From Coleofasciculus sp. LEGE 07092 (GTDB lineage Bacteria > Cyanobacteriota > Cyanobacteriia > Cyanobacteriales > Coleofasciculaceae), in contig NZ_JADEWY010000035.1 of NCBI RefSeq assembly GCF_015207375.1, positions 1 through 50,322 on the forward strand: 50,322 nt of DNA. Direction: 5' to 3'. Below are positions 2,944-50,300 of this stretch, piece by piece. The translations under genes and the position numbers were made by a program. The notes beneath the pieces are model-generated. The model saw nothing but the letters and a program-made list of their open reading frames with translations, was not told the DNA's origin and did no database searches. Position 1 is the stretch's first letter. Each line of letters starts with the position of its first letter.

Positions 2944-2978
2944 ATTATCCTTTGTGGCAGCGGATTAGGTAACGGATT

Positions 2979-4604: not shown

Positions 4605-4616
4605 ATGTGTCATTAG

Positions 4617-4643
4617 ACTAATAACTAATAACTAATAACTAAT
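4617..4643 (+). repeat. Heptanucleotide repeat actaata, 3.9 copies, next to a start codon
   Basis: Three full copies and one six-base copy of actaata end two bases before the ATG at 4646. As at 2979-3013, the repeat occupies the place of the ribosome-binding site. No alternative purine-rich site is seen. Confidence 0.85.
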
Positions 4644-4645
4644 CT

Positions 4646-5602: not shown

Positions 5603-5811
5603 GGGGAGCTGGGGTGACGGAATAACTGCTGGGAAAAGCCTTTCGGACAAGCCGATGAACGAATTGAGGATTTTAGTCACGGGTTAAGTTGATACAAATC
5701 ACATTCTGGATGTGTTAAATATCACAACTTGCCTCAGCACTGCATCACTGATCGGATGGCAAAAAGATTAAAAATTGGACAATAGTGGCTATATAAATTC
5801 AGCAACCATCC

Positions 5812-7287: not shown

Positions 7288-7311
7288 GTGAAATATATCT
7301 AGTTTTCTTGC

Positions 7312-7332
7312 CTACTCTCTACTCCCTACTCC
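7312..7332 (+). repeat. Heptanucleotide repeat ctactcc, three units
   Basis: Units ctactct, ctactcc and ctactcc lie between the convergent histidine kinase and galT genes. This is the common cyanobacterial STRR heptamer. No strong terminator hairpin was found in the same gap. Confidence 0.8.
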
Positions 7333-7380
7333 CTAAAATCCATGACCTTGTTGTAGAAATATTATAGACAACATCTCTAC

Positions 7381-10033: not shown

Positions 10034-10152
10034 GCTTTTAATTCTTTGATATTTTCCCGTAGGATAGCCATCTACCTGTCACCCAACTCCAAAAATCCTC
10101 TAAAATTCCTGACTCCTACCTCTAATCGCTGTCAAAGGAAAAGGAGAGAGTA

Positions 10153-10260
10153 ATGGAGTCACACGATGAGCGATCCTTACTTGCTAGCAGCAAGTTTATT
10201 AACAGTAGGACCTGTATCCGCCCCACCTCCATCAACCCTAGCACCCAATCTCCTCGATAA
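10153..10260 (+). CDS. Possible 35-codon leader ORF overlapping the SGNH hydrolase start
   Basis: The ATG at 10153 follows AAGGAGAGAGTA, the best Shine-Dalgarno sequence in this gap, at good spacing. It opens a 35-codon frame ending TAA at 10260, offset by one base from the SGNH hydrolase frame whose ATG is at 10166. The hydrolase ATG is about 19 bases from the same site, which is too far. The short peptide has no recognised domain. It may be a coupling leader, or just a chance frame with translation starting at 10166. Confidence 0.3.
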   Translation: MESHDERSLLASSKFINSRTCIRPTSINPSTQSPR

Positions 10261-11218
10261 CCTTTCTGGGCTGCTCGCTGCTGCTGCTGCTCGAACTAGG
10301 GAATCTGCTGTCACGCACCAGAAGATGGTTCCCCTTGTTGAAACCTCTGTGGTTGAATTTAGCAAACCGCAGGCAACCGCCCCTAGAGCCGTAACAGCTT
10401 TGGCGACTAATTTACCAATGCAGCCCAAACCCCAATCAACGGCATTCTCACCAACCTCTGGCACTCAACTCTATTACCAAAGACTAGCTGCTTTAAAAGC
10501 AGGCAAGCTTTATACGCGCCTCTCAGCCGATAGCTTCCAATCTGCTTGGACAAAGGGAACGCTTCCCAAACCCACTCATGAACAGTGGAAACGCCTGCTA
10601 GAGCAAGAAGCGAAAGCGATCGCTAAAGGACAGGGAGATAATCGCCTCGCTATTTTAGTGGGGGATTCTCTCAGTCTCTGGTTTCCCTCAGAACGCCTTC
10701 CAAGTGGTCAATTTTGGCTTAATCAAGGCATCTCTGGTGAGAACTCCAGCCAAATTCTGCAACGACTCTCTGCTTTTTCCCAAACTCGCCCTGATACGAT
10801 TTACGTGATGGCAGGGACTAACGACTTGCGACAGGGAGTGAGCGATCGCGTCATTCTCGATAATACTCGTCAGATTCTGCGTCGCTTGCGCCAAAATCAC
10901 CCCCAAGCTCAAGTGGTTGTTCAGTCGATTCTCCCCACTCGGTTGCAGGCAATTCCGAGCGATCGCATCCGTAACCTCAACCAACAAATTGGCGCGATCG
11001 CTCAACAAGAAGAAGCGGGATTTCTCAATCTCCACAGCTTGTTTGTCAATGAGGAAGGTCAACTACGACGGGAACTTACCACCGATGGCATCCATTTAGC
11101 CAAACAGGGCTATAACGTTTGGCAAGAAGCACTCCAGTATACCCAATCGTGGATAGCCCTGAATCAGAGCGATCGCTCTCCAACGGCATTGGGCAGTAAT
11201 AGTAATGTTGACTTTTAA
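10166..11218 (+). CDS. SGNH/GDSL-family hydrolase with long variable N-terminus
   Basis: A 350-residue protein. The first 155 residues are Ala/Pro/Ser-rich and low in complexity, with no obvious signal peptide, although the first 15 residues are mildly hydrophobic. The catalytic domain then shows all four SGNH blocks: GDSLS with Ser168, the oxyanion Gly188 (LNQGISG), GTND with Asn219, and DGIHL with Asp307 and His310. An esterase or lipase-like activity is expected; the substrate is unknown. It follows sucrose-phosphate synthase on the same strand by 130 bases, but may not share a transcript. It is not closely like the SGNH proteins of the MBOAT cassettes, where the Ser motif and layout differ. 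Confidence 0.85.
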   Translation: MSDPYLLAASLLTVGPVSAPPPSTLAPNLLDNLSGLLAAAAARTRESAVTHQKMVPLVETSVVEFSKPQATAPRAVTALATNLPMQPKPQSTAFSPTSGTQLYYQRLAALKAGKLYTRLSADSFQSAWTKGTLPKPTHEQWKRLLEQEAKAIAKGQGDNRLAILVGDSLSLWFPSERLPSGQFWLNQGISGENSSQILQRLSAFSQTRPDTIYVMAGTNDLRQGVSDRVILDNTRQILRRLRQNHPQAQVVVQSILPTRLQAIPSDRIRNLNQQIGAIAQQEEAGFLNLHSLFVNEEGQLRRELTTDGIHLAKQGYNVWQEALQYTQSWIALNQSDRSPTALGSNSNVDF

Positions 11219-33490: not shown

Positions 33491-34720
33491 TTATTGCTTA
33501 TTTAGTCCTGACAACGGATTAGCATCGTACTCTTGCTTTATATCTTGAACTAGCTGGACTTCGTCAGGATACTTCCTTGCCCATAGATCACGATTAACCC
33601 GGATTTTAGCTAAATGAGCTTCAATATTATTGGGCGTGATAAGAACACCAAAATCTTTCGGAACCTGCTCAGTTTGGTAAGATAACAAGCGGTTGAGAAC
33701 CCAAGTGCCAACTTTTGAAGTGTAATGAGAATTATCGGTATAGTTTTCTATGTCATAGCCAATGGGTTCTGTGGTGACACTGTTATAACCAGAAAAATCC
33801 CAAACTGGAGCAATTTTGACAAGTTGGCGTTTCCATTCTTCAAATGTTTGCCAATGTCCCGTAGCGCGAATCGCTTCCCATTGGGTAGCATGGGATGGGG
33901 ATATAAAAATTTTTAACTTTATATTATTTTGCTGGCATAAATCAACAATTTTTTTAAAATCATCTAGGTATTGATTCGATAAATCATAGTTATCGTGATT
34001 TTGAAAATAGTCATTAATACCTACTTTAAATCTCCACTCGTTTTCTGCTTTATTAACATCGCTATAAGGACTAAATCCTAGATAGTCACTACTTTTTTGA
34101 TTTGGAGTTTTGTTGCTGGCTGTCACGGTTTCTACGCTTGCAGATAAAGCATCTATTGAGAATCCAAATTTGACAGCATCTTGGAGAGTAATATGCTGTT
34201 TCTCTAATCGACTTTCAGAAAAAACAGGTGGATTGGCAAGGTGAGAATTGAAGGAGAAAAAATCAGCACCGACAATTACTAATTTTAAATTAGGTTGATT
34301 AGCAATTGCGTGTTGTAGATAGCGTAATTCTTCGTAAATATTTACACCATTAAGTCCAATATTATAAGCAGTTTGACTATTGGCTAAAGCCGAATATTTT
34401 GGATCTAGACCCTGTTTAGCTCTGGAGGAACCTAAAAGAACTGTCACAGGTTTTAACTTGATGATATCAGTAGCTTTATACACTCGGTCATTGTTGTCTT
34501 TTTTTGGCTTTAGCTGATTCAAACCCACCAATTTGGGACTGTTAAAAACCCCATAGGGATCGATAGCAATATTGAATAAGCCAGCAGAAAGCAGAGGAAC
34601 AAAGGCAGTTATCAGAAAGCTTACATTAAATCGGCGATATTTTTTAACCCAAGAAGTTGGTTTTCTGGGTTCCGACCAAACTTTTGAGGAACCTGACTTC
34701 AACTGACGGGATGTACTCAT
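33491..34720 (-). CDS. Membrane-anchored SGNH-like acyltransferase, cassette A, first copy
   Basis: A 409-residue paralogue of the protein encoded immediately downstream. A basic N-terminus leads into one membrane helix (31-52), then IDPYGVFNSPKLVGLNQLKPK, which matches the other copy. The serine block is VLLGSSR (97-99), and the final block TDNSHYTSK has Asp329 and His332. Both catalytic blocks are intact, so both copies could be active. It follows the MBOAT by 15 bases. DltD is the closest functional analogue known to me; AlgJ/AlgX/PatB are alternatives. Confidence 0.72.
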   Translation of the reverse strand: MSTSRQLKSGSSKVWSEPRKPTSWVKKYRRFNVSFLITAFVPLLSAGLFNIAIDPYGVFNSPKLVGLNQLKPKKDNNDRVYKATDIIKLKPVTVLLGSSRAKQGLDPKYSALANSQTAYNIGLNGVNIYEELRYLQHAIANQPNLKLVIVGADFFSFNSHLANPPVFSESRLEKQHITLQDAVKFGFSIDALSASVETVTASNKTPNQKSSDYLGFSPYSDVNKAENEWRFKVGINDYFQNHDNYDLSNQYLDDFKKIVDLCQQNNIKLKIFISPSHATQWEAIRATGHWQTFEEWKRQLVKIAPVWDFSGYNSVTTEPIGYDIENYTDNSHYTSKVGTWVLNRLLSYQTEQVPKDFGVLITPNNIEAHLAKIRVNRDLWARKYPDEVQLVQDIKQEYDANPLSGLNKQ

Positions 34721-34735: not shown

Positions 34736-36217
34736 TTAAAACTGGAAGTAAAGAAACTCAGATACACGGTTGAGTGACAGTAAAGAAAAGCTAGCAAGGA
34801 CACCCACCCAAGCTGCCCACCACCACGTTGGCTTCAATCTCCGCAGGATTTGCTGTGTATTGGGGAGTAAAGTAACACATAGCGTTAGTCCAACTAAAAC
34901 AAGTATACTCACGAGCTTGCTGCCATTTACCTCTGGTAGGTAAACTAAATCATTCCAAGACTTAAGCTGCAATCCAAATTGCGTCAGTATCGATAACTTA
35001 CCTTGAGCTTCACCGGGCAGTACAATCCCTTTCATGCCAACCATTGCTTGGAGAATTTCCGTGGCAGCAGGCAAGCTTTTGGATCTAAATAATACCCACC
35101 CGGCAACAACTGCAAAGAATGTCATAGCCCATCCTACTAGCTTCGGCAACGGAATGTTCAACTTACGCCACCAATGATTAACCGATAGATATATTCCATG
35201 TAACCCACCCCACACCACATAAGTCCAACCAGCACCATGCCACAACCCGCCTAGTAGCATAGTGATAAAGAGGTTCGTATAGCGCCGGACTTCTCCCCGA
35301 CGACTACCACCGAGGGGAATATATAGGTAATCCCGCAGGAAATTGGATAGAGTAATATGCCAGCGCCGCCAAAACTCAATAATGGAAGTAGATTTATAGG
35401 GAGAGTCAAAATTAATCGGCAGACGGATATTGAACATCAACCCCAAGCCAATAGCCATATCGGAGTAACCCGAAAAATCAAAATAAAGTTGAAAGGTATA
35501 GCTTAAAGCCCCTACCCAGGCTTCAATGAAACTAACTGCATCAGGGTTATCGAAAACGGGTGCTACCCAAGGCGATATGTTATCCGCTATCAAGACTTTT
35601 TTTGACAGTCCTAGACTAAACATAGTTAAGCCTAGAGCCATATTTTTTTGAGAAAAAATGAAATGTCGCTTCTGACGGAACTGATTGATGAGTTCATCAT
35701 GACGCAGAATTGGTCCCGCAATGAGTTGGGGAAAGTAGCTGATAAATAAGCTGTAGGTTAGAATATCATAGTTGGAGTCTTTTGTTTCACCCCGATAAGC
35801 GTCAACTAAATAAGCAATTTGAGTAAAAGTGTAAAATGAAATGCCCAGAGGCAGTATTATTTCAAGCCTTGTTAGATTGGTATTGAAAACACCGTTAACA
35901 GAGGATAGTAAAAAATTGGCATATTTATAATAAGCAATAATAGCTATATTAACAATAATTCCTATCCAAAGTAAATTTTTTGCTTGCCTCTCCCTGGGTT
36001 TAGCACTTTCGATAGCTTTGCCCATTTGATGGTTGAAGAGGATCGAAATGAGTAGAAGGGGGAGATAGGCAATATTCCAGTATCCGTAAAAAATTAGAGA
36101 ACTTACCGTTAACCAAATTGTAGCAGCTTTGGTTAAACGAAATCTGACTAAACCAAAGAAGAGGATTAAGGTAATGGGTAAAAAGATAAAAATGAAGACG
36201 TAGGAATTGAATAGCAT
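34736..36217 (-). CDS. MBOAT acyltransferase with C-terminal acyl-shuttle hexapeptide, cassette A
   Basis: A 493-residue AlgI/DltB-type membrane O-acyltransferase. It has the hallmark FDFSGYSDMAIG (247-258), EFWRRWHITLS (281-291, His287), and the catalytic His327 in GGLWHGAGW with a further His at 340. The long loop LRDYLYIPLGGSRRG is typical of the AlgI group. The last six residues, FLYFQF, fit the tyrosine-bearing C-terminal acyl-shuttle motif found on MBOAT proteins in some Dlt-like pathways. It is followed by two SGNH-like genes and preceded by the HTTM-DCC gene in the same direction. Confidence 0.9.
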   Translation of the reverse strand: MLFNSYVFIFIFLPITLILFFGLVRFRLTKAATIWLTVSSLIFYGYWNIAYLPLLLISILFNHQMGKAIESAKPRERQAKNLLWIGIIVNIAIIAYYKYANFLLSSVNGVFNTNLTRLEIILPLGISFYTFTQIAYLVDAYRGETKDSNYDILTYSLFISYFPQLIAGPILRHDELINQFRQKRHFIFSQKNMALGLTMFSLGLSKKVLIADNISPWVAPVFDNPDAVSFIEAWVGALSYTFQLYFDFSGYSDMAIGLGLMFNIRLPINFDSPYKSTSIIEFWRRWHITLSNFLRDYLYIPLGGSRRGEVRRYTNLFITMLLGGLWHGAGWTYVVWGGLHGIYLSVNHWWRKLNIPLPKLVGWAMTFFAVVAGWVLFRSKSLPAATEILQAMVGMKGIVLPGEAQGKLSILTQFGLQLKSWNDLVYLPEVNGSKLVSILVLVGLTLCVTLLPNTQQILRRLKPTWWWAAWVGVLASFSLLSLNRVSEFLYFQF

Positions 36218-36244: not shown

Positions 36245-38110
36245 TCACTCATTTTCTAGAGAATCCTGGGAGCAAGGCTGCTGCCAGGGATTAGTCTTCT
36301 CCACATCCTGAGTTTCCCCCGGTGGCACTGTCCTCTCACTCATAAAGTAAATCTCAAGGCTCTTGAGCTGTTTTGATTCTGGGTGCCGAGCATTCCAGTC
36401 GCGGCATAGATATTGCCCATAAGAGGGGATAAGTTTCTGCCCCAGACCGCGATTGAGGTTGATAAAGTAGGTGCGCCATTGCATATTCCGATAGGTGACA
36501 TTTCGCCTCCGAATCGTCGGCTTATTCCAATTTACGGGCTTGCCCTCGTCGAGAAGGTTCACCTCCGTGCCATCCTCAAGCCTGCCAGACATTACATACC
36601 AGCCATCATCTCTGGGAGGACCCGGAGCGAAAATACTCCAAGACTGGTCTAACCGAGTCAGGCGACTAATCCAGTCAATAGAATTAAACGTCCTTCGATG
36701 CAGCGTTTTATAGGCAAAACTTTCTTTACTTAAAGCTCTCTCAGATAAAATCCTGACATTCCAAACGGTAGTGTAAACGAGCAAGAGCAACGTTACTGCA
36801 TTCAGAAGTCCTGAAGAATGCACCTCAAGGGGACGGAATTTTAACGGTTTGGTGAATGTGCCAGCAGCCCTACGGTTAGAAGCAATAGTCTCGTAAAATT
36901 TCGTCCCCACTGACATGAACGGTTTCCATCTGAGAACAGATGCAAGAAACCCAAACATAGGTGAGAGACTAACGACATAAGCGATCGCTTCCCATTTAAA
37001 ACGCCTGTTCCCCTGCCAATCTACAACCACCCAGGAATTTTTCTCCTGCATATCAGCATAAATTGAAGCGTCTTCCTGCTCCTGAGCCATCAGCAGGGGG
37101 GTTTTCGGCAAAATCAGGAACGTGCGAATCAGGTAAACGACCTTTTTACAAAAGCCGCAGTCTGCATCATAGTAAATCGCCAGCCCAGCTCTTTGAGGAG
37201 TACGCACCCTTTTGGCTAAACCATCCCAAACCTCAGTAGGAATAAACACCAGCCAAGTAAACATACCAAGGGCTGCAAACAAACCAATATGAAGCGTTAA
37301 TCCGAACCCCAGATGTAAGAGGATAAAGGTGACAATCGTCGCGCAACGGAAAAAGGTAGTGCGGAAGGGAACAAACAGAAACAGCGGTCCGAGCCACTCT
37401 AGAACCAACGTAGCAAAGGTGAAAGCGGTTAACAGGGGGGGAAAGTTCAGTAGGAATTGACCCAATGGAACAGCGTACTGGTCGAAACTCAAAGCGTAGT
37501 AAACTGCACTCCCATCGGGCCACCAAGTCGGGCTAGTCGTCTTAAAGGCGGCGGAAAATATGTAGACGTAGCAAATTTGCAGAGTTAGTGCGAAGGTTGC
37601 ACCGGAGAGGATGCGTTTGGGTAACGGTTTGGTAGATGTATTGAGGGCGCTATCGATTGAGTAACAGGCTCCCAAGGGCAAAAACATCGCCCAGAACATT
37701 AGGGCGCGAAGCATATCATCCCCAGCAAACAGCACTGCCGGATTGCGGTTGTGCAAGGAAATCAGCATTGCCCACGACGCGATCGCAGCCAGCCGAGTGC
37801 GATACCCTACCAACAAGGCTACCGCAATTAATCCCGCTAGTAAAAATACAAGGGTTTGAACCAATGGTTGACCACTGAGCGAATACACTGACCAATACCA
37901 GGGCTTGATGATATCGTTCAGGGCAGTCCGGGGTAGCACTCCCGTATCTGAATAAAGTGTATTAATATCCGAGGAACGAATAATCAAATCGGCAATTAGG
38001 ATTAGGGCTATACCAATACGAAAGGCAGCTAGCGATCGCAAATCGAACCCAAATAGTTCCTTCAGTTTGGTCGCTAACTTAGTTTTAGGTTTTTGTTTAC
38101 TAGCATTCAT
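36245..38110 (-). CDS. HTTM membrane domain fused to DCC thiol-disulfide domain
   Basis: About 621 residues from the ATG at 38110; a TTG 18 bases upstream is in frame but has no better site. The N-terminal 300 residues form the HTTM domain with about eight helices, including SLHNRNPAVLFAGDDMLRA and the WWPDGSAVYYAL segment. This domain is related to the membrane part of vitamin K-dependent gamma-glutamyl carboxylase. Residues about 312-430 are a thioredoxin-like DCC domain with DADCGFC, Cys318 and Cys321. A last helix and a soluble tail (SIFAPGPPRDDGWYVMSGRL) follow. It follows an NDH-2 gene that may reduce a quinone. Function unknown. Confidence 0.83.
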   Translation of the reverse strand: MNASKQKPKTKLATKLKELFGFDLRSLAAFRIGIALILIADLIIRSSDINTLYSDTGVLPRTALNDIIKPWYWSVYSLSGQPLVQTLVFLLAGLIAVALLVGYRTRLAAIASWAMLISLHNRNPAVLFAGDDMLRALMFWAMFLPLGACYSIDSALNTSTKPLPKRILSGATFALTLQICYVYIFSAAFKTTSPTWWPDGSAVYYALSFDQYAVPLGQFLLNFPPLLTAFTFATLVLEWLGPLFLFVPFRTTFFRCATIVTFILLHLGFGLTLHIGLFAALGMFTWLVFIPTEVWDGLAKRVRTPQRAGLAIYYDADCGFCKKVVYLIRTFLILPKTPLLMAQEQEDASIYADMQEKNSWVVVDWQGNRRFKWEAIAYVVSLSPMFGFLASVLRWKPFMSVGTKFYETIASNRRAAGTFTKPLKFRPLEVHSSGLLNAVTLLLLVYTTVWNVRILSERALSKESFAYKTLHRRTFNSIDWISRLTRLDQSWSIFAPGPPRDDGWYVMSGRLEDGTEVNLLDEGKPVNWNKPTIRRRNVTYRNMQWRTYFINLNRGLGQKLIPSYGQYLCRDWNARHPESKQLKSLEIYFMSERTVPPGETQDVEKTNPWQQPCSQDSLENE

Positions 38111-38158
38111 AAGAGGGTAGATGGGCAAATAGGAGTTAGAAGTTAGGGGAAAGAGAGA

Positions 38159-39475
38159 TTACCGATTGTGCCGTCGGTGATTCCTAGACCTTCGACGAGG
38201 AAAGATGAGTTTTGTCAACCACTTGCCAATCCAATACCTCAAGACTTGGAGGCGATGGCGCAGGGTTGGTAGGCGCTGGAGGTAGACAAATTGTCTGATG
38301 ATGCTTGCCAATCGACCGTCTACCTTAAGTGCAAAGCTAGAGACAACGGCTGCACCTTTTCCCAATGTCAGCATCTCTCCCAGATGCAGATAGCGGAAGC
38401 GGACTTGCGGTTTGCCTGCGATCGCCCGATAGAGGTTTCGCGCTGTACAATCAGCTTGTTGGTAAGCTGCTTGCGCCGTTGCTGGTATGCGCTTGCCTCT
38501 GGCATTTTGAACTTCTGCGATATCTCCTAAAGCAAATACCTCTGGATAATCAGCTAACTGTAAAGTAGGAAGAACGATGAGCTGACCTTGGCTATTGTGT
38601 TCGCAAGGTAGATAGCGTACCCAATCGATCGAGCGAGTCCCCACCGTCCACAGCACGAGATCAACGGGCGTCTGAGTCTTACCCTTGTTATCGACTACGG
38701 TGATTTGGTCTGATTCTATAGCTTCAACGCTAGTTTCAAAGTCAAGCTGAACCCGTCGCTTGTGCAAGGCGCGGCAAGCGGCTGCCCGACTGTAGGGGGA
38801 AAAGGATTTGAGTAGCTCTGTTCCTCTCTCAATCAGTCGTACCTGTCCCCGTTTCGGCAAGCGATCGGCAAGTTTACAGGCTAACTCTACCCCACTCGGA
38901 CCTCCACCCACAACAGCAACCCGAATAATGGGTTGATCGGAACATTCTAAAACTCGCAACCGTTCTTTCAGACGTTCGGCATCCGTGACGGTACGGAAGA
39001 GATAGGCGTAGGTGGCAGCACCAGGAACGCTATCCAACCGCATCTCAGCTCCCACTGCCAACACCAGGTAGTCGTAGGTTAGCAGCGTTGGGTTTGGGTC
39101 AAGTTCCCCAACTTCCTCGTGCTGGAACGTGACTTGGCGATTTTCTAGATCGACACCCCGAACCACGCCTTTACAAATAGCTACATTTGTGTTAATGAGC
39201 AGTTTTTTAAATGTGGGGGCGATTTCCCAAGGTTGGAGTTCGTTGGTAATCACTTCGTAGAGCAACGGGGTGAATACTAAATGGTCTTTGCGATCAATCA
39301 GGGTAATTTGACAACGATTTGATAAAGCGTGAAAGCGTTGCAGGTACAACGCCGTATAAAGTCCCCCAAAACCGCCACCGAGGATGCAGATGCGCGTAGG
39401 AGCTTCATTGTTATTCAGGGCAGAATTAGAGCGGAACGGTTGACCGAACCTTTGGTTGTCTAGCTTGTAGTTCAT
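38159..39475 (-). CDS. Type II NAD(P)H:quinone oxidoreductase (NDH-2)
   Basis: A 438-residue flavoprotein of the NDH-2 type. An FAD-binding ICILGGGFGGLYTAL motif (about 29-43), the NAD(P)-binding VAVVGGGPSGVELA (about 186-199) and FALGDIAEV, typical of the second FAD motif, are intact. The C-terminal part has a hydrophobic and basic stretch as in membrane-bound NDH-2. It moves electrons from NAD(P)H to a quinone. One cyanobacterial member, NdbB of Synechocystis, works in phylloquinone synthesis; I cannot say which subgroup this is. It lies between the SGNH gene at 39514 and the HTTM-DCC gene. A link to either is inference. Confidence 0.87.
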   Translation of the reverse strand: MNYKLDNQRFGQPFRSNSALNNNEAPTRICILGGGFGGLYTALYLQRFHALSNRCQITLIDRKDHLVFTPLLYEVITNELQPWEIAPTFKKLLINTNVAICKGVVRGVDLENRQVTFQHEEVGELDPNPTLLTYDYLVLAVGAEMRLDSVPGAATYAYLFRTVTDAERLKERLRVLECSDQPIIRVAVVGGGPSGVELACKLADRLPKRGQVRLIERGTELLKSFSPYSRAAACRALHKRRVQLDFETSVEAIESDQITVVDNKGKTQTPVDLVLWTVGTRSIDWVRYLPCEHNSQGQLIVLPTLQLADYPEVFALGDIAEVQNARGKRIPATAQAAYQQADCTARNLYRAIAGKPQVRFRYLHLGEMLTLGKGAAVVSSFALKVDGRLASIIRQFVYLQRLPTLRHRLQVLRYWIGKWLTKLIFPRRRSRNHRRHNR

Positions 39476-39513: not shown

Positions 39514-40572
39514 TTACAAGCATTCGCAATCCGCGATCGCTCGTCTGCTTTGCACTAAATCGACATGGATGTCAGCGCTAGTCGATTGTTGGGGTAGGAA
39601 CTGCTTTTGAAAGTTCCGTCCACTCCGTCCACTTTTAGAATTAGGTACACCTAGTTCCGCTTTAAGGACTTGCTTTAACTGTTGTGCCAGTTCCAATGAC
39701 CTGATTTTTATCCCTTTATCATTCAGGTGATAGACTGTATCACCAAACAAGGTAGAGTCATTTTTCAAATTGAATGATTTTTTGTCATAGATAACTGGAG
39801 AAATTTCGAGCAATTTCTCTGTAATTTTTTTAGCATTAACAAGCGTATTCTCATCAATATTAGTGTACACCCATGGTAATGCCAATATCAGAGTTGCTTC
39901 CGAACGATCCAATTGGTCACGAAATTTCTTAAGACGCAGACAAGCATAGGCGGATAAGTGAATATTAAGTACTGCTGGCTCAACGATTCGTCGTTTCAGA
40001 TCAACAGGATCTCCATTGGCATTAAGCCGATCTGAGTAGTAACGCGGGTTTTTGATTTGTCGAATAAAATCTAAACTTGATTTCGTGACATATTTTAGAC
40101 CTGGATTACCTGCATTCAAAAGATCTTCAGCTAACTCTTCATAAGGTACGCCTCCCAAACCAGGGCGTCCAATCGCTATTCCAAACGGGCTAGCCATTCT
40201 ATCAATCCCATCCTCATCTTCGAGAATAGCGTATTCTGGAATAACAACGATGAAGTCGCCACGGTGAATTTGACCAGAAATACTATCAAGAATGATGTTT
40301 ATTCCCAGAGAACCATGCACACCCATATTAAATACTGGAATGCCGAGTTCTTGCTCTATTTGCTGTGCATTAACACCAAAGTGGGTTCCAGAACCACCAA
40401 GGATTAGCACCCGTCTTGATCCTTTAGCTTTATTAGCTTTTTGAGCCTTTAGCTTATAGATCGAACGAGCCCAGCTTAATTCTCCACCATCGTTAATTTT
40501 GCCCAGATACCCAAAAGACCAAGCTAAAACCACAACCATTATCCAAGTCGTAAACTTTAAAAGTTTCAACAT
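39514..40572 (-). CDS. SGNH-like membrane-anchored acyltransferase, cassette B, second copy
   Basis: A 352-residue protein with a short N-terminal helix (about 10-24). The catalytic serine is in LILGGSGTHFGVN (Ser61), with the final block FGDTVYHLNDKG giving Asp and His in DxxxH spacing. IAIGRPGLGG (near 137) is shared with the paralogue upstream, and is not common in other SGNH families I know. The C-terminal tail of about 40 residues is basic and Gln/Ser-rich, and is absent in the paralogue. It is likely an extracytoplasmic acyltransferase or esterase in the pathway with the MBOAT at 41623, analogous to DltD. The last codons are Cys-rich (DCECL). Confidence 0.68.
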   Translation of the reverse strand: MLKLLKFTTWIMVVVLAWSFGYLGKINDGGELSWARSIYKLKAQKANKAKGSRRVLILGGSGTHFGVNAQQIEQELGIPVFNMGVHGSLGINIILDSISGQIHRGDFIVVIPEYAILEDEDGIDRMASPFGIAIGRPGLGGVPYEELAEDLLNAGNPGLKYVTKSSLDFIRQIKNPRYYSDRLNANGDPVDLKRRIVEPAVLNIHLSAYACLRLKKFRDQLDRSEATLILALPWVYTNIDENTLVNAKKITEKLLEISPVIYDKKSFNLKNDSTLFGDTVYHLNDKGIKIRSLELAQQLKQVLKAELGVPNSKSGRSGRNFQKQFLPQQSTSADIHVDLVQSRRAIADCECL

Positions 40573-40660
40573 TCTATTTTGACACTTTGATAATGAAAAC
40601 GTAAAAGCTAATCAATCACTACAAGTCACCCAATCCCAACTTGGAATTAGTGCTCGTGTA

Positions 40661-41623
40661 TTATTGCGGCAGTTTCTTTGACGAATCCGGTGCCTCTCGT
40701 TGCATGCCGATAACTGCTCTTAACTGTTTAGCTATCTCCTCTGCCCTAATTTCCCTAGATTCAGGCAAGAGGTGATAGTGAGTGTCGGCAAACAAACTGG
40801 AGTCTGTCTTCATGTTTAGTGACTCTTTGTCATAAATTAACGGCGCAATTTTGGCGAGTTCCTCTGCCGTCTTTTTAACATTATTAACCGATTTCTCATC
40901 GGTACGAGCGTAGACCCAAGGCAGTGACAGAACTAAGGTTGCCCCTTTTGCTTCTACCTCTTCCCGGAATTTAGCAATTCGTTGTATGGTGTGCTTTGAT
41001 GCGGGTTCGTTAATCGGCAATTCCCACCATTTACCCGTGCGTTCTTTCGTCACCGTGGGGTCTCCCCGCTCATCCACCGGATCGGAGTAATAGCCGGTCA
41101 TTTTTCCGGTTTGGATGACTTCAAAGGCGGACTTCGTTGCTGCTCTCAGCGTCGGTGTTCCGAGCAGCAGAGCTTGTTGTGCTAACTGCTTCGGCGGTAT
41201 ACCTCCCAAACCGGGGCGTCCAATTGCCATACCAAACTGAGCAGAGCGATCGCCCAATCCATCTTCAGACCACAAAATCAAGTACTCAGGAATCAGCAGA
41301 ACAATATCACCAGGGCGAACTTTATCCAGAATGCTAGGGAGGATAACATCTAAACCCACTGGTCCATCAATTCCTAGATTCAAGACAGGAATACCCAATT
41401 CCTGCTCAAGCAACTCTGAATTAATCGTATAGTGCGCTCCCGAACCGCCAGTAATCAGCAGGCGTCTTGGGGCTTCGATTTGGTCAGCCAGCGCTATTTT
41501 TTCTTCGTACATCATCCGCAGCCAGCTCAACTCGCCACCGTAGCGCACGTTGTAAACGTAACCAATAGACCAAGCTACCGCCGCTACCGCCAACCAACTT
41601 GTTAGCTTTAAAGGTTTCCACAT
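40661..41623 (-). CDS. SGNH-like membrane-anchored acyltransferase, cassette B, first copy
   Basis: A 320-residue protein with an N-terminal helix (8-24) followed by GGELSWLRMMYEEK, also seen in the paralogue downstream. The serine block is ITGGSGAHYTIN (Ser61), and the final block is FADTHYHLLPES with Asp280 and His284. The middle AIGRPGLGG (134-141) is shared with the paralogue. Its start codon overlaps the MBOAT stop (TGATG), so the two are translationally coupled, which suggests a direct partnership. DltD is the functional model. An acyl donor can be supplied by FAAL and ACP in the same run. Confidence 0.72.
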   Translation of the reverse strand: MWKPLKLTSWLAVAAVAWSIGYVYNVRYGGELSWLRMMYEEKIALADQIEAPRRLLITGGSGAHYTINSELLEQELGIPVLNLGIDGPVGLDVILPSILDKVRPGDIVLLIPEYLILWSEDGLGDRSAQFGMAIGRPGLGGIPPKQLAQQALLLGTPTLRAATKSAFEVIQTGKMTGYYSDPVDERGDPTVTKERTGKWWELPINEPASKHTIQRIAKFREEVEAKGATLVLSLPWVYARTDEKSVNNVKKTAEELAKIAPLIYDKESLNMKTDSSLFADTHYHLLPESREIRAEEIAKQLRAVIGMQREAPDSSKKLPQ

Positions 41624-43086
41624 CAGAATTCAAAGTAGATGAACTTAGAAGGCTCATTCGCTGCTAATAAGATGGTTAAACCCAATAAAATCCGCGATAC
41701 CCACGGGGATAGCAGCAATTCATATTCAAGCTTCCGTTTTTGCCAGACGGCGAGATGTTCCATAAATAACACCCCATTGGCAAGAACCAGGGTAAAAATT
41801 AGGGCAGCCCCTTCATTGAAGCTATAAGAACTCAAGAAATCGCCCAAGTTAGAGAAGGAATAAGCCCAAGGAGTAACAATTGTTTGTATCTTCAGCAGCA
41901 GTCGGCTGATATTGATTTCCATAAAGAACAGACAACCCAGCGTCACCGCCCCAAACGTCAGCGCCCAAGATATAAACTGAGAACGGGACGCATAGTTCCC
42001 CATCAAGCGTTGAAACGGTCTGCCCGTGTATCGCAGCAGCAATAGCAAAGCGCCGTGGTAAGCACCCCAAATGATGAAATTCCAAGCAGCACCGTGCCAG
42101 AAGCCAGAGAGTGTAAAGGTAATAAATAGGAAAAAGGCAGCCCATTGCTTCTTAGAACCCATCAGGGGCAAGAAAACATAATCCCGAAACCAGTTATTCA
42201 GGGTAATGTGCCAGCGCCGCCAAAATTCCTGGATGCTCACTGAAGTATAGGGGGCGAGGAAGTTAATGGTTAGCCGTATACCTAGGATTCTGGCTACACC
42301 AAGCGCCATAAAGCTGTAGCCAGCAAAATCAAAATAGATCCGGAGGGTGAACAAATAGGCAAAGAACCAGACCATCCAGGCATTGGCGGTTTCTTGTAAG
42401 TTGATATAGGGGGCTAAGTTATCCGCTAGCACCAACTTCATGAAAAATCCCAACGACAACCACCTCAACCCTTCCTCAAAATTTTCTACCGTAAATTTGA
42501 AGCGGAAGGCTTGAATTTGTGGCAGCAAATCGGCACGACGCTCGATAGGACCGGCAACAATCTGGGGGAAGAACGAAATAAAGTTAATGTAATCGATGAA
42601 TCCAATCGGTTTTTTATACTTGGGTTTGAGGGAATCGACGACAAATGCCACCATCTGGAAGGTGTAGAAGGAGACTCCCGGCGGAATCTGCGGAAAAATT
42701 GGTAGGGGAAAATTGTCGTGCCAATTGTTCATTGGACTTCCTACCGCCAGTCCTATTACATCTTCTACGAAAAATGTCAAGTACTTCAGGTAGGCAAGAA
42801 TACCAATATCGATGATAATTACGACAGCAGCAATCAGCTTGGCTTGCGCACCACGACGCTGTTGCATCTGCCGCACCATGAAGTAGTTAAAAACCAGTTC
42901 AGCGGCAAAGATAAGAAAGCTAGAGCGACTGGCATTGACAAACAGCAGCAGCGACATGACCGTCAGCCCGACGGTGTCAAAGTAGTCTCGCCACAGCTTC
43001 AGGGACTTGCCGATGTAGCGAATCGTAAAGAAGGGAATGCAGTAAAGGAGCAGCACCCACCAGAAGGAAAAATCAGAAAAATTCAA
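41623..43086 (-). CDS. MBOAT acyltransferase with C-terminal acyl-shuttle hexapeptide, cassette B
   Basis: A 487-residue AlgI/DltB-type protein. It has IYFDFAGYSFMALG (250-263), EFWRRWHITLN (287-297, His293) and SGFWHGAAWN with His331. The last six residues, FIYFEF, match the tyrosine-bearing acyl-shuttle motif form F-x-Y-x-x-F. Start is TTG at 43086, preceded by GGGGAGG about ten bases upstream; no ATG lies close in frame. A 150-base gap separates it from the ACP gene. The next gene's start overlaps its stop. It should take an acyl group from the carrier protein inside and pass it to the tail outside. Confidence 0.92.
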   Translation of the reverse strand: MNFSDFSFWWVLLLYCIPFFTIRYIGKSLKLWRDYFDTVGLTVMSLLLFVNASRSSFLIFAAELVFNYFMVRQMQQRRGAQAKLIAAVVIIIDIGILAYLKYLTFFVEDVIGLAVGSPMNNWHDNFPLPIFPQIPPGVSFYTFQMVAFVVDSLKPKYKKPIGFIDYINFISFFPQIVAGPIERRADLLPQIQAFRFKFTVENFEEGLRWLSLGFFMKLVLADNLAPYINLQETANAWMVWFFAYLFTLRIYFDFAGYSFMALGVARILGIRLTINFLAPYTSVSIQEFWRRWHITLNNWFRDYVFLPLMGSKKQWAAFFLFITFTLSGFWHGAAWNFIIWGAYHGALLLLLRYTGRPFQRLMGNYASRSQFISWALTFGAVTLGCLFFMEINISRLLLKIQTIVTPWAYSFSNLGDFLSSYSFNEGAALIFTLVLANGVLFMEHLAVWQKRKLEYELLLSPWVSRILLGLTILLAANEPSKFIYFEF

Positions 43087-43237
43087 TTAACAGTTTCCTC
43101 CCCTGTTTTAAGCGTGGCAGCGGATTTGCTAGCGGATGTAACGGATGAGTAATTGCCTTCCAGTCGCTTTGAAAATAGAGAGGGAAGTCTTGGAGGTAAG
43201 CGAGTTAATTTCCTCCAGACTTTCCCACGGGTAGGAT

Positions 43238-43675
43238 TTATTTGCCGCCAACCCCTTTCCAAAATCCACCCCAACCTTTAGCGGATTTGTCGGCGGTTTC
43301 TTTGGGTGTGTCTGCTGCTACCACGGGTTCGGTTTTATTCAATGCGGCTGAGACATCGAATTCTTCAACCAAGTATTGAGCGGATTTTTCAATGGTGGGG
43401 TAGTCCCAAAATAGCGTTGAAGGTAACTCTAGTTCGAGCCAATCTTCCATATCACCAACCATTGTCACCGCATCAATGGAGTCCAGACCGTAGCGGGTCA
43501 GGGGTTCACGGACATCAATCGTTTTGGTGTCGAGAGACAGTTGCTCGGCGAGTTGATTAACTAGCCAGGTTTGAATCGCTTCAACGGACGCCGTTTTTAG
43601 ATTTGTGCCGTTATTTTCTACGGAATTTTCAAGCATAACCTCATCAGGCTTGGAGCTGGAGTTCTGAAGTTGCAT
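43238..43675 (-). CDS. Acyl carrier protein with extra C-terminal tail
   Basis: About 145 residues. The ACP domain (about 30-115) carries GLDSIDA with the phosphopantetheine Ser at about residue 66 from the ATG at 43675, and PSTLFWDYPTIEKSAQYL, the usual helix after it. The chosen ATG is preceded by GAGG nine bases upstream; an ATG at 43636 (MLENS) is the alternative and gives a shorter leader. It overlaps the end of the dehydrogenase gene by 32 bases. After the domain come an Ala/Thr-rich linker and a Gly/Trp-rich tail (GWGGFWKGVGG), unusual for an ACP. It is probably loaded by FAAL. Confidence 0.88.
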   Translation of the reverse strand: MQLQNSSSKPDEVMLENSVENNGTNLKTASVEAIQTWLVNQLAEQLSLDTKTIDVREPLTRYGLDSIDAVTMVGDMEDWLELELPSTLFWDYPTIEKSAQYLVEEFDVSAALNKTEPVVAADTPKETADKSAKGWGGFWKGVGGK

Positions 43676-45452
43676 CAATCTTATCCTCTTGTGTTTCAGT
43701 TTGAGCGAGTTGAAAGGGGACGATGGAAAACATCTTGTTTTCCTGGTACAGCTTGATTAATTGTTGGGCAACATTTTCAATGTAAGCCGGAGAAACGACC
43801 TCTGGCAAAGTCCGCCAAGGACTTAGCAGCCGATGGAGACTGAGTACCAACCATTCGCCTTTGGCAAAAAAGTCACCTAACACTTTCCGGTTGTAAATCC
43901 ACATATGAACGCAAGCAGCGGCTGTATGTAGGGTGCAGTATTTCTTTGCTACCTCAAATAACTCAGGGGATTGGTCGTGACCATATTCAAAGCCTGAATT
44001 GGCAATGAGTTGGTCGTGGGCGTTGAGTTCTTCAAGGATAGCGCTGGTTAGCATCCCAATCTTATCCAAGACTTCCGCATCGACATCAGACGCTGTTGTT
44101 AAGTCTTGCAGTTGCCCTAGGGCAATTTCTAGCCCTTGCAACACATCATCAACTCCCCGTCCGAATAGCTGGAGTTTCTCTGGCTCAAAAGGTGGCACGG
44201 ATTGTTCTAGGGAAAAGATAGTTTCTAGACGGGATTGGATGCCTTCCATCGTTTTATCAGTTCGTTTCGCCCGATATTTAGTGATTTGGCGAAACTGGAG
44301 GAGCAGGGCATGCAGGTTAACAACGCTGCTGCCATCAAACATACTGATGATGGAATTATCCCGGAGCATCTTTTGGAAAATACCCCAATCATGTTCCTCC
44401 CGCATATAGAAACGAGCACCCAGCACCACCGAAACGTTATTAACTACTGTTTCTAACTGGATGGTGACAAAGTATTTCACTACGGCTGCCCAGACGGAAA
44501 ACTGCTCTGGGATAATGTGAAATCCTCTAGCTGACCCAATGGTTTCACAATCGCAGATTAAAAGATCTAAGAACGCATCTACTAAGGTTTGGCGAGGCTG
44601 GGGAATATCGAAAACAGTTTTGTTATAAATGACGCGATTCAGGGCAAATTTCAGGGTCGTTCTCAAGGCGGTATCGGCGGCACCGTGAGAAAAAGCCGAA
44701 CACAACATCCGCGTGATTTGAAAGCCCTTAAGGGCTAGTTCCAAACCCGCTCCTTCTTCCTTCAACCGCATCTCTTCGGGAATAAAGCAATCTTTAAACC
44801 CAATCCCACTCATATCCGCACCGCGAATTCCGTGGGTGAGAATCTTGGGCAGATTGTAATAAGTTGCCGAGTCGAGTTGGCTTTTATCCACCATAAATAA
44901 TGATAGACACCGCGCTCCCTCCTCTTCGCTGGTTTTAGCCAGCACAAAGGTAACTCCTGAGCGCGTGGCGCGGTTGATGGGCCACTTTTCCCCGTTGAGG
45001 AGATAACCGCCAGGAACTTTGGTAGCTGTGACATTACCAGCAATCAAATCGCTGCCATGTTCCCGTTCGGAATAGGCAAGGCACATGGTTCCATTGTGGT
45101 TTTTCATGAAACTGGCTAGTTTCTGCTTTTGTTCCTCTGTGCCTGCCATCCAGGTTAGGAACGACCAAAACATGGTGGTAAATGCGATCGCCGAATTTTG
45201 GTCACGCCGCGACAGCACCCGCACAAAGGCGACGAATTCCTCAAAGGAGGTAAACTCTCCGCCACAATCAACGGGGATGTAATAATGCTGTAGCTTCCAG
45301 TTGTAGAGCCAGTTCACTTCCGCTTCCGGAAACTCTTCCCGTTCATCCAGTTCAACCACCCGTTTGAAGGACATGATACTCTCTGGATTATCAGGAGATC
45401 CCAAATCATGCTCTAGGGATTCAGCGAGGCGATACTGCTTGAGTTGATGCAT
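43644..45452 (-). CDS. Acyl-CoA-dehydrogenase-like enzyme, probably acting on acyl-ACP
   Basis: A 602-residue flavoprotein of the acyl-CoA dehydrogenase superfamily, longer than the usual 380 residues because of a C-terminal extension of about 200 residues. LAYSEREHGSDL (125-136) and LNGEKWPINRA (152-162) are the FAD and substrate-binding segments. The place of the catalytic base (YEGT in many members) reads MFDGSS, with Asp373 in place of Glu. It lies between FAAL and the ACP, and its end overlaps the ACP start, so an acyl-ACP substrate is likely. The likely reaction is alpha,beta-desaturation of the loaded acyl chain. Loss of dehydrogenase activity is also possible. Confidence 0.82.
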   Translation of the reverse strand: MHQLKQYRLAESLEHDLGSPDNPESIMSFKRVVELDEREEFPEAEVNWLYNWKLQHYYIPVDCGGEFTSFEEFVAFVRVLSRRDQNSAIAFTTMFWSFLTWMAGTEEQKQKLASFMKNHNGTMCLAYSEREHGSDLIAGNVTATKVPGGYLLNGEKWPINRATRSGVTFVLAKTSEEEGARCLSLFMVDKSQLDSATYYNLPKILTHGIRGADMSGIGFKDCFIPEEMRLKEEGAGLELALKGFQITRMLCSAFSHGAADTALRTTLKFALNRVIYNKTVFDIPQPRQTLVDAFLDLLICDCETIGSARGFHIIPEQFSVWAAVVKYFVTIQLETVVNNVSVVLGARFYMREEHDWGIFQKMLRDNSIISMFDGSSVVNLHALLLQFRQITKYRAKRTDKTMEGIQSRLETIFSLEQSVPPFEPEKLQLFGRGVDDVLQGLEIALGQLQDLTTASDVDAEVLDKIGMLTSAILEELNAHDQLIANSGFEYGHDQSPELFEVAKKYCTLHTAAACVHMWIYNRKVLGDFFAKGEWLVLSLHRLLSPWRTLPEVVSPAYIENVAQQLIKLYQENKMFSIVPFQLAQTETQEDKIDATSELQLQA

Positions 45453-45553
45453 TGATTTCTCCAGTTATTCGTTACTTAGTCATTAGTCATGGGTTCGTTA
45501 CTACTAACAGATAGTTTATAGCGGTTCTCATTTACAGGAGGTACAGTCCCATT

Positions 45554-45581
45554 CCCTACTCCCCACTCCCTACTCCCTGCC
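45554..45581 (+). repeat. Heptanucleotide repeat ccctact-like, four units
   Basis: Units ccctact, ccccact, ccctact and ccctgcc lie in the 178-base gap between the FAAL and dehydrogenase genes. Same class as the heptamers at 7312 and at the left end of the window. Confidence 0.75.
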
Positions 45582-45630
45582 TTCATCAGGGTGTACCTCT
45601 CCAGACTCGGAAATGCTATATGACTAGCAA

Positions 45631-47472
45631 CTAAGGTTTGATTGTTTGCACTTGTTGTGCTAAAGAGTCTACTTCTCCTTGGAGATTGCGGAATTTAGCT
45701 GTGAATTTGGGATTCTCGCTCCAATCTGCTAGTACTCCGAGTTCTCCTGCTAAGAAGTTTCCTCGAGCCGCACGGCGCTGAATCTTGCCACTTGAGGTTT
45801 TTAGGATGTTTCCGGGTTTGACCAATACCACAGCATAGGCATGGAGTTCGTGTTCTTCTGCCACTGCCTGACGAATGTCAGTAAGGATTGCATCGAAGTT
45901 TACATCTTGGGTGCGGCGTTCCACCTCTTGAAGAATAATCAATCGTTCCTCACCGCTGGCATCGACAGAAAATGCGGCACCGTAGTCGGGACGCAGCGCT
46001 GAGTGAACTTGCTGCACCGTCCATTCAATATCTTGAGGATAGTGATTCGTGCCTCGGATGATGATCAAATCTTTGATCCGACCGACGATAAACAACTCAC
46101 CCTCTTTGAGAAATCCCAGGTCGCCTGTGCGTAGAAAAGCACCTTCTCCTGTATCTGTTAGGTAAGCTTGGAAGGTTTCTTTTGTCTCTTCGGGACGCTG
46201 CCAATAGCCTTGAGCAACACTGGGATCTTTCACCCAAATCTCGCCGATTTCATCGGGAGCGCAGCGGGTGTGCTTTTCAGGATCGGCAATGGCTACCTGA
46301 GTATCGCAGACCAAACGACCGCACCCAGCTATTGCGCGCACTCCCTCTCGAGGTTGACTAACTGCTACCACTCGGTTTCTTTCCAGCGCTGCTGCCTCAA
46401 CGAAGCAGAGTACTGGGGGTTCTAGCAACGGACTGGTGGAAACTAATAGGGTATCTTCAGCCAATCCGTAAGCGGGAGCAAAGGCATTCCAACGGAAGCC
46501 GCAGGGTTGAAAGGTTTCAAAGAAACTCTCCATTACCTTGGGATTAATGGGTTCGGCGGCATTGCCTGCTGCCTGCCAATTACTCAGATCTAATGCTTCG
46601 AGTTGTTTGGGTTTAGCTCGGCGAACGCACAAATCGTAAGCAAAGTTAGGGGCTTGGCTATGGGTTGCCCTGTAGCGCGAAATGGCAGCCAACCAGCGAA
46701 TGGGTTGCTTGATAAAGGCAAAGGGTGACATCACATAGCAGGGCGTCCCGTTGTAGAGTGGTTGCATCAGTCCTTCCACCAGCCCGTAATCGTGGAAGTA
46801 AGGCATCCAGCTTACTGTAACGCTGTCTGAATCATACCCACAGGCTTTCTGGAGATAGCCTGAATGGACCATCAGGTTTTTGTGGGTGAGCATCACGCCC
46901 TTGGGGGTGGAGGTCGAACCTGAGGTGTATTGAAGATAAGCGATTTGTTCGCTGTTAACTTTAGGATCTTGCCATTCCTCTGCCAATTGCAGATCCATCT
47001 GTTCGGTATCGAGCCAGCGCATCTCCTCGAATTCTGGAAACTCGTCGCGAACGTCTTCTAAGAGGGAAAGAATGCGAGCGTTAGTCAGCACTACAGAGGC
47101 TTGAGCATCTTTGACAATGGAGCGCAATCTCGGTAATGTGCGCTTCATTCGCCCACCGTCAGGAGGCGGCACGGGGATAGCAATAACCCCACTGTAGAAA
47201 CAACCGCAAAATGCGGCGATTACTTCCAATCCTTGGGGATAGAGCAGCAATGCTCGTTCTCCGGGGGCGCTGTGGTGTTGCAGCCAAGCTCCGATTGCTC
47301 TGGCTTGATGATCCAGTTCAGCATAGGTTAGGGATGAACCTTCGGTCTTGCCATCAATCAGAAAGGTATAAGCTCCCCGCTCGGCTTGATGGATGGCTCG
47401 CCAGCGTAGCAGCTCGATTAGGGTAGAAGATTCACCTGTTGGAACAGTTGAATTAGCAGGGGTTTGAAGCAT
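45631..47472 (-). CDS. Fatty acyl-AMP ligase (FAAL)
   Basis: A 613-residue adenylate-forming enzyme that activates fatty acids with ATP and hands them to a carrier protein. The P-loop is YTSGSTSTPKGVML (182-194). The adenylation motif LRTGDLGFL and GRIKDLIIIRGTNHYPQDIE match FAAL and related proteins, where the HYPQDIE form is typical. The C-terminal Lys motif SSGKIQRRA is intact. FAALs are told from acyl-CoA ligases by an insertion in the large domain, which I cannot align here. Neighbouring ACP supports the FAAL reading. It is first in the minus-strand run, with the noncoding region upstream containing two repeats. DltA is its functional counterpart in the Dlt pathway. Confidence 0.92.
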   Translation of the reverse strand: MLQTPANSTVPTGESSTLIELLRWRAIHQAERGAYTFLIDGKTEGSSLTYAELDHQARAIGAWLQHHSAPGERALLLYPQGLEVIAAFCGCFYSGVIAIPVPPPDGGRMKRTLPRLRSIVKDAQASVVLTNARILSLLEDVRDEFPEFEEMRWLDTEQMDLQLAEEWQDPKVNSEQIAYLQYTSGSTSTPKGVMLTHKNLMVHSGYLQKACGYDSDSVTVSWMPYFHDYGLVEGLMQPLYNGTPCYVMSPFAFIKQPIRWLAAISRYRATHSQAPNFAYDLCVRRAKPKQLEALDLSNWQAAGNAAEPINPKVMESFFETFQPCGFRWNAFAPAYGLAEDTLLVSTSPLLEPPVLCFVEAAALERNRVVAVSQPREGVRAIAGCGRLVCDTQVAIADPEKHTRCAPDEIGEIWVKDPSVAQGYWQRPEETKETFQAYLTDTGEGAFLRTGDLGFLKEGELFIVGRIKDLIIIRGTNHYPQDIEWTVQQVHSALRPDYGAAFSVDASGEERLIILQEVERRTQDVNFDAILTDIRQAVAEEHELHAYAVVLVKPGNILKTSSGKIQRRAARGNFLAGELGVLADWSENPKFTAKFRNLQGEVDSLAQQVQTIKP

Positions 47473-48657: not shown

Positions 48658-50158
<1,501 letters not shown>

Positions 50159-50172
50159 CATTTAGGGAATAG

Positions 50173-50300
50173 GGAGACAAGGAGACAAGGAGACAAGGAG
50201 ACAAGGAGACAAGGAGACAAGGAGACAAGGAGACAAGGAGACAAGGAGACAAGGAGACAAGGAGACAAGGAGACAAGGAGACAAGGAGACAAGGAGACAA
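50173..50300 (+). repeat. Octanucleotide tandem repeat ggagacaa, 16 perfect copies
   Basis: Sixteen uninterrupted copies of ggagacaa fill exactly 128 bases, directly after tocopherol cyclase. The reverse complement reads ttgtctcc. This is longer and more regular than the other repeats in the window. Length is likely to vary between strains and may also be under-called in assembly. Confidence 0.95.

Follow-up and report, generated by a model that had tools for sequence, protein, structure and literature searches.

The 50,322 nucleotides from the cyanobacterium Coleofasciculus sp. LEGE 07092 considered here (contig NZ_JADEWY010000035.1, positions 1 to 50,322; the whole stretch is called the window) carry a run of genes in which a fatty acyl-AMP ligase (FAAL), an acyl-CoA-dehydrogenase-like flavoprotein (ACAD) and an acyl carrier protein (ACP) are followed by an MBOAT acyltransferase, two SGNH-type proteins (SGNH1 and SGNH2), an NDH2-type protein and a protein with a predicted vitamin-K gamma-carboxylase fold (HTTM/DCC1). 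About seven of these genes are patchily distributed and are inherited as one set, even when they are unlinked. With moderate confidence, the set is read here as a cyanobacterial envelope-acylation pathway on the plan of the Dlt system, in which a fatty acid takes the place of D-alanine. The genes of the run lie at the following window positions.

FAAL, 45631..47472, minus strand: fatty acyl-AMP ligase, 613 aa; Pfam AMP-binding at 5.3e-65.
ACAD, 43644..45452, minus strand: acyl-CoA-dehydrogenase-like flavoprotein, 602 aa; PF02770 and PF00441 above cut-off.
ACP, 43238..43678, minus strand: acyl carrier protein, 146 aa, TTG start with ATG as the next codon; PP-binding at 6e-15, Ser67, GWGGFW tail.
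MBOAT, 41623..43086, minus strand: acyltransferase of the DltB/AlgI group, 487 aa, TTG start; Pfam MBOAT at 1.7e-26.
SGNH1, 40661..41623, minus strand: putative SGNH-fold protein with an N-terminal helix, 320 aa; from predicted structure and invariant motifs.
SGNH2, 39514..40572, minus strand: paralog of SGNH1, 352 aa; 45% identity, same motifs.
NDH2, 38159..39475, minus strand: protein of the FAD/NAD(P)H-quinone-reductase family, 438 aa; Pyr_redox_2 at 2.7e-48.
HTTM/DCC1, 36245..38128, minus strand: predicted vitamin-K gamma-carboxylase fold with an inserted DCC1 domain, 627 aa; DCC1-like at 2e-8, and model.
MBOAT2, 34736..36217, minus strand: second MBOAT, accessory; Pfam MBOAT at 1.8e-36.
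SGNHx, 33491..34720, minus strand: presumed MBOAT2 partner of the GSS...DNSH type, accessory; SGNH nature from motifs.

An earlier, sequence-only reading of this DNA had described FAAL, ACAD, ACP, MBOAT and two SGNH genes as co-directional with two overlaps, and this is what is found: all six lie on the minus strand, ACAD and ACP overlap by 35 nucleotides, and MBOAT and SGNH1 by 1. That reading ended the run at 39514; beyond SGNH2, however, it continues through NDH2, HTTM/DCC1, MBOAT2 and SGNHx, with intergenic gaps of 15-38 nucleotides. The gene unit is real but was drawn too small: FAAL, ACAD, ACP, MBOAT and SGNH1 belong to it as listed, whereas NDH2 and HTTM/DCC1 were missed and SGNH2 is dispensable.

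The distribution of the genes was followed in 194 genomes drawn evenly from the window's phylum, with thresholds set by hand (E<=1e-80 for ACAD, 1e-110 for MBOAT, 1e-15 for SGNH1, 1e-60 for HTTM and 1e-190 for FAAL). ACAD, MBOAT and SGNH1 pass in an identical 10 of the 194 genomes and in no others. FAAL passes in 43, and its ten best copies (1013-1223 bits; next 863) are those of the same 10 genomes. In all 10 of these carriers an ACP adjoins ACAD and HTTM is present. The carriers represent 6 families and 9 genera, and sampled members of three carrier genera are without the set (G044, G049 and G066; G146; G169 and G204). The chance of one exact match between two such sets would be 1 in 1.6e16 if genomes were independent, and shared ancestry makes it far larger.

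All seven genes stand together in four carriers (G000, G084, G097 and G212). Elsewhere they lie in separate places: FAAL-ACAD-ACP-MBOAT-SGNH1 and NDH2-HTTM (G023); FAAL-ACAD-ACP-MBOAT, SGNH1-NDH2 and HTTM (G134); ACAD-ACP-MBOAT-NDH2, SGNH1-HTTM and FAAL (G128, G165); or ACAD-ACP, MBOAT-SGNH1-NDH2, FAAL and HTTM (G118, G120). SGNH1 is thus found beside MBOAT, NDH2 or HTTM. Conserved order was dropped as a mark of the set, gene content being kept better than order. The outcome that the sequence-only reading had named as fatal to it, genes lying apart with no co-occurrence, was looked for directly: FAAL, ACAD-ACP, MBOAT and SGNH1 lie apart in five carriers, yet they co-occur exactly. Since these five split them over distant places in different ways, the co-occurrence is not mere linkage.

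Closer relatives and genomes named from a wider scan extend this picture. Among 29 relatives (28 and the window's own genome), an ACAD match of some kind is present in 15, and in nine of these the identity reaches at least 46%; the order FAAL-ACAD-ACP-MBOAT-SGNH1 is found in seven of the nine, the contig of one (G009) ending inside SGNH1. A single scan of named genomes gave 79 loci, 50 of which were examined (L039-L088). In 43 of the 50, ACAD is at least 60% identical, and by score thresholds the same stretch carries ACP in 38, MBOAT in 35, FAAL in 29, NDH2 in 24, SGNH1 in 21 and HTTM in 18; the FAAL count leaves out L055 and L067, which are cut by contig ends, and L077, which is in two pieces. 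Contig ends account for several of the genes missing from a stretch; those of L060, L062, L072 and L080 fall at or within ACAD. Among the carriers are Okeania, Hydrocoleum, Crocosphaera, Hydrococcus, Chroococcus, Aphanothece, Microseira, Hyella and Xenococcaceae. The genomes behind 27 of the 50 examined loci, chosen mostly for an unlinked SGNH1 or FAAL, were followed as wholes: 24 of the 27 have SGNH1, the same 24 have HTTM, and 23 have a FAAL above 1000 bits. The three that have none of these (Nostoc FACHB-110, Oscillatoriaceae M33_DOE_052 and Tumebacillus flagellatus) have ACADs only 41-49% identical; a FAAL of this score is also missing from a Trichormus metagenome-assembled genome (MAG) with broken genes. 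Of the 24, Crocosphaera watsonii WH 8501 and the Trichormus MAG have SGNH1 in pieces only. Distances between the families in 29 genomes correlate with r of 0.46-0.86 overall and 0.80-0.98 on different fetched pieces, which agrees with common inheritance; as these values also reflect species history, they are not relied on.

Some of these results weigh against inheritance as one set. The profiles were built from linked copies, the FAAL carriers were separated at a gap in score, and the co-occurrence is uncorrected for shared ancestry. HTTM also passes in three non-carriers (G167, G119 and G129). The best NDH2 copies of the carriers score 585-676 bits in eight genomes and 525-545 in two; three non-carriers score 527-570, and the family occurs in 82 of the 194 genomes, the locus-type copy not being cleanly separated. 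NDH2 travels with the gene set, less cleanly than HTTM/DCC1. Among the relatives, G025 (ACAD 46%) has a different gene after ACP, and in G027 ACAD is frame-broken with no MBOAT adjoining.

The first three genes form what looks like a donor cassette. Compared with solved structures, FAAL scores 430 bits against the FAAL 3kxw, 346 against FadD32 and 566 against 7r7f, a "polyketide synthase" entry that it matches at full length (572 aa), as against 89 bits for the best CoA ligase and 67.6 for DltA 3e7w; by these scores it is closest to FAALs rather than to CoA ligases. Its top NCBIfam match is a model for nonribosomal peptide synthetases and polyketide synthases (NRPS/PKS), over its first 580 positions (535 bits), followed by FAAL models (446-372 bits), and none of its NCBIfam matches reaches the cut-off of the model. 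ACAD exceeds the cut-offs of PF02770 (acyl-CoA dehydrogenase M, 53.7 bits) and PF00441 (C-terminal 1, 39.8 bits), and its residues 33-379 align with the solved acyl-CoA dehydrogenase 5ol2. The phosphopantetheine site of ACP is DSIDAV, with Ser67, and the DltC model is absent from its 10 NCBIfam hits. A C-terminal tail of the GWG type is present in the ACP of 30 of the 35 MBOAT-linked loci and was not seen in the four ACPs inspected from diverged loci (L079, L081, L083 and L088); the tail is a candidate for docking the ACP or tethering it to the membrane. At two loci FAAL is faced by a gene for a 4'-phosphopantetheinyl transferase. The window's own genome has a second FAAL, 51% identical, near a tail-less ACP, with a 346-aa open reading frame (ORF) between them (contig C125, L038 12882-16142).

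Cassettes of this composition can also start a natural product. The mycobactin genes MbtM, MbtN and MbtL are a FAAL-ACAD-ACP starter cassette. In rotihibin (RthH/I/J/K), as described in a passage of PMC8552735, a lipopeptide starts with a FAAL, two ACADs and an ACP; these have the same three activities and are proposed to yield a dehydrogenated fatty acyl-carrier thioester that supplies the unsaturated acyl tail. Moreover, in diverged loci of Nostoc FACHB-110 (L079), Tumebacillus (L083) and Streptomyces (L087), FAAL-ACAD-ACP is followed by a type I PKS, with ACADs of 35-49% identity. Here too, FAAL-ACAD-ACP might start the synthesis of a lipopeptide or other lipid metabolite that is secreted, with MBOAT and SGNH1 acting on that small molecule rather than on the envelope, and the patchiness of the genes is as in secondary-metabolite clusters. 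Yet no NRPS or PKS gene was found among the 20 window proteins scanned (24.4 to 50 kb). The long unlabelled ORFs scanned near the set in other carriers (L068, L072, L118 and L130) are a histidine kinase, an RTX/FG-GAP protein, a helicase and a mannosidase, none of them NRPS or PKS, other neighbours there being known by ORF length only. The partner set is also constant yet dispersed, which is unusual for a natural-product cluster, and we consider this explanation unlikely. The stretches L079, L083 and L087 carry neither an MBOAT nor an SGNH1 of this type, and at the thresholds applied the Nostoc FACHB-110 and Tumebacillus genomes matched neither SGNH1 nor HTTM. The starter cassettes pass their acyl group to an NRPS, or, in the three diverged loci, probably to the PKS, whereas here the partners are MBOAT and SGNH1; there seems to be one donor cassette with two users.

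The partners recall Dlt, whose DltD is SGNH-like. To our knowledge, Dlt is the best studied case of a carrier-protein thioester feeding an MBOAT for export. The carrier DltC feeds DltB (PMC11035591), and DltC stays inside while DltD is outside (PMC3783018). The set shares with Dlt an adenylating ligase, a carrier with a phosphopantetheine serine, an MBOAT with the two DltB histidines, of which His289 is an active-site residue, and a partner of predicted SGNH fold. His293 and His331 of MBOAT align with DltB His289 and His336 and are invariant in 15 sequences; His336 is an active-site residue of DltB according to a passage of PMC11035591. The same source describes DltC as docking on DltB through helix residues Met36, Val39 and Glu40, with Lys312 and Arg317. 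Counted after the serine, the ACP counterparts are Ile68, Val71 and Thr72, and the docking-helix region of MBOAT resembles that of MBOAT2, which we take to be an AlgI-type enzyme.

This last resemblance, together with the glycosyltransferases and second MBOAT found by library scans of the window proteins, could mean that MBOAT and SGNH1 are an ordinary AlgI/AlgJ-type pair for polysaccharide O-acetylation that lies by chance beside a FAAL cassette, with no acyl transfer from ACP to MBOAT. AlgI and AlgJ are such an MBOAT-SGNH pair and have no dedicated ligase and carrier; MBOAT with an SGNH-fold partner is like them, and MBOAT2 and SGNHx may be of this kind. Chance adjacency fits poorly with the finding that FAAL, ACAD, MBOAT and SGNH1 orthologs share precisely the same 10 of the 194 genomes, in five of which they are split, and it is very improbable.

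Neither SGNH1 nor SGNH2 matches a Pfam or NCBIfam family at E<=0.05, and at E<=10 Pfam gives nothing for SGNH1 and only Peptidase_S74 for SGNH2, at 0.36 and under its cut-off. The predicted structure of SGNH1 (m6161a3c6b3bf, pLDDT 86.8) has an SGNH-hydrolase fold, with VIA Z scores of 12.2-13.6 among the matches listed (best 50) and neighbours that include E. coli TesA, PAF acetylhydrolase and PatB; DltD 6o93 is ninth among its Foldseek matches (E 5e-3). Ser61 and His64 (GSGxH) and Asp280xxxHis284 are invariant in 18 sequences. SGNH1 is predicted, from this model, to have the SGNH fold with a Ser-Asp-His triad, and SGNH2 is assigned to the same type by its shared motifs. The earlier description of both as SGNH-like membrane proteins thus stands for the fold and motifs; a membrane location is plausible only, neither protein having a 19-residue window of hydropathy above 1.6.

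The two further members of the set lie beside each other. NDH2 belongs, by sequence, to the pyridine-nucleotide oxidoreductases, and from knowledge of its family we take it to be a quinone reductase. HTTM/DCC1 matched no Pfam domain other than DCC1, and a PDB profile search gave it no sequence match. Its model, however, matches 16 structures of the vitamin-K gamma-carboxylase GGCX with Z of 9.8-16.6 (the next, unrelated structure has 7.3), in alignments of 324-386 residues at a root-mean-square deviation of 5.4-6.3 within residues 12-623; the top 13 Foldseek matches are all GGCX, and about residues 311-396 match GST/glutaredoxin-like domains. The model thus predicts a vitamin-K gamma-carboxylase fold with an inserted DCC1 thiol-disulfide (thioredoxin-like) domain; HTTM/DCC1 differs from GGCX in being bacterial and in this insertion, as well as in the missing PDB profile match. 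Because NDH2 stands beside a quinol-enzyme fold, the two suggest quinone chemistry.

Quinone chemistry would also suit a quite different acceptor. MBOAT might acylate a membrane lipid, a quinone or a sterol-like molecule from acyl-ACP, within the membrane or at its face, with SGNH1 as an editing or releasing esterase or thioesterase and no transfer to a glycan. The best structural neighbours of SGNH1 are mostly esterases and thioesterases, and in the window's family a tocopherol cyclase gene is next door. However, it adjoins the set only in that family among the loci examined, and bacterial MBOAT-SGNH pairs, such as those of Dlt and alginate, are typical of extracytoplasmic acylation. There is, in our judgement, only a small chance that this alternative holds.

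In the favoured envelope pathway, whose catalytic steps and topology are inferred from the families of the proteins, FAAL would adenylate a fatty acid and load it on phosphopantetheinylated ACP. While bound to ACP, the chain would then be oxidised by ACAD, the probable product being an alpha,beta-unsaturated acyl group. MBOAT would take the acyl-ACP at the cytoplasmic face and pass the acyl group across the membrane, and SGNH1, on the outside, would transfer it to an envelope glycan or lipid. The acceptor is a guess from family knowledge: an exopolysaccharide or the glycan of lipopolysaccharide. NDH2 and HTTM/DCC1 would act in a quinol-linked step, either in the redox balance of ACAD or in further modification of the exported group. 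More tentatively, the acyl group may be set on the surface and then altered by the vitamin-K-carboxylase-fold enzyme, driven by quinol, with NDH2 supplying the reduced quinone, in an envelope pathway not described before; this is possible but doubtful.

Several properties of the proteins sit badly with such a pathway, for which the support comes from sequence and models. MBOAT scores 187.1 bits against the NCBIfam DltB model TIGR04091, under its cut-off of 375. Its counterpart of the DltC-docking helix region is shortened, and Glu40 of DltC is replaced by Thr72, so that docking must partly differ from that of DltC on DltB. Neither SGNH protein matches DltD in NCBIfam at E<=0.05 or in Pfam at E<=10, and the nearest structures to SGNH1 are mostly hydrolases. 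The best 17-residue hydropathy mean at the SGNH1 N-terminus is 1.54; with so weakly hydrophobic a helix its outside location is only presumed. In ACAD, Asp373 (FDG), invariant in 8 sequences, stands where 5ol2 has the Glu of YEG, the catalytic base of acyl-CoA dehydrogenases; as some of these enzymes place the base elsewhere, ACAD may be a dehydrogenase all the same, or may act at a different position. The GWG tail is absent from the ACP in 5 of the 35 MBOAT loci and also in sample genomes G134 and G084, and the model of HTTM/DCC1 is of low confidence (pLDDT 64).

The sequence-only reading had proposed that FAAL, carrier, MBOAT and SGNH make up a Dlt-like pathway. That they act as one functional unit is strongly supported by the co-occurrence; gene content, folds, catalytic residues and common inheritance are all matters of observation. 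A literal Dlt system, however, is not supported: MBOAT falls under the DltB cut-off, the ligase is by structure-match scores a FAAL and not DltA, and SGNH1 has no DltD match, and for these reasons the set is not filed as Dlt. It differs further in the proposed modification of the carrier-bound group by ACAD and in the added NDH2 and HTTM/DCC1, and we know of no teichoic acid from cyanobacteria. The set is better regarded, by analogy, as a variant form of envelope acylation by an MBOAT-SGNH pair, one that has a fatty-acyl carrier cassette of its own. A literature search for FAAL/ACAD/ACP/MBOAT/SGNH/HTTM combinations returned no description of the combination, which does not by itself show its absence from print; the single passage on MBOAT in a lipocone survey concerns another operon with SGNH and MBOAT.

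If the pathway is as proposed, a fatty-acyl version would allow MBOAT-SGNH transfer across the membrane to be tested with a chain that is large and easy to label, and cyanobacteria would gain a genetic route to hydrophobic surfaces; hydrophobic exopolysaccharide enhances the adhesion of cyanobacteria to solids, according to a passage of PMC4500136. The tie to HTTM/DCC1 places a bacterial protein of predicted vitamin-K-carboxylase fold in a functional context, and, were the quinol-driven version true, acyl export from a carrier protein would be joined to vitamin-K-type chemistry.

Three further candidates for the core of the set were rejected. SGNH2 appears as a second copy in 1 of the 10 carriers, the window's own, and is a lineage-specific duplicate of SGNH1. 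MBOAT2 and SGNHx are a second, looser, accessory pair: at E<=1e-160 MBOAT2 is found in 5 of the 10 carriers and in 9 non-carriers. SGNHx adjoins MBOAT2 also in G023, G128 and G134; its S99, D329 and S331 are invariant in 9 sequences and His332 is kept in 8 of the 9. The tocopherol cyclase and an SH3 protein were set aside as parts, as among the loci examined they adjoin the set only in the window's family. In the window, a repeat run (SPCLLVS in one frame) at 50050-50292 adjoins the tocopherol cyclase gene.

Okeania sp. SIO2C9 (L148) has a tandem array of several SGNHx genes, not all of them intact (452-7643), and three short repeats that resemble the N-terminal 35 or so residues of HTTM lie upstream of the HTTM gene (9975-10397). 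Two contigs labelled Gracilibacteria and Chloroflexaceae (L043 and L085) carry the cyanobacterial set, and their bins are probably mislabelled or contaminated. The set is in decay in Crocosphaera watsonii WH 8501 (L141 5882-8467, L142 6040-7605, L061 4176-5921): some 90 residues are gone from the middle of SGNH1, whose two halves stand in different frames, HTTM is interrupted by two in-frame stops, the FAAL match is without its first 73 or so residues, and neither ACP nor MBOAT is matched downstream of ACAD. We take WH 8501 to be a low-exopolysaccharide strain, which would fit this decay; three other Crocosphaera genomes have kept the set.

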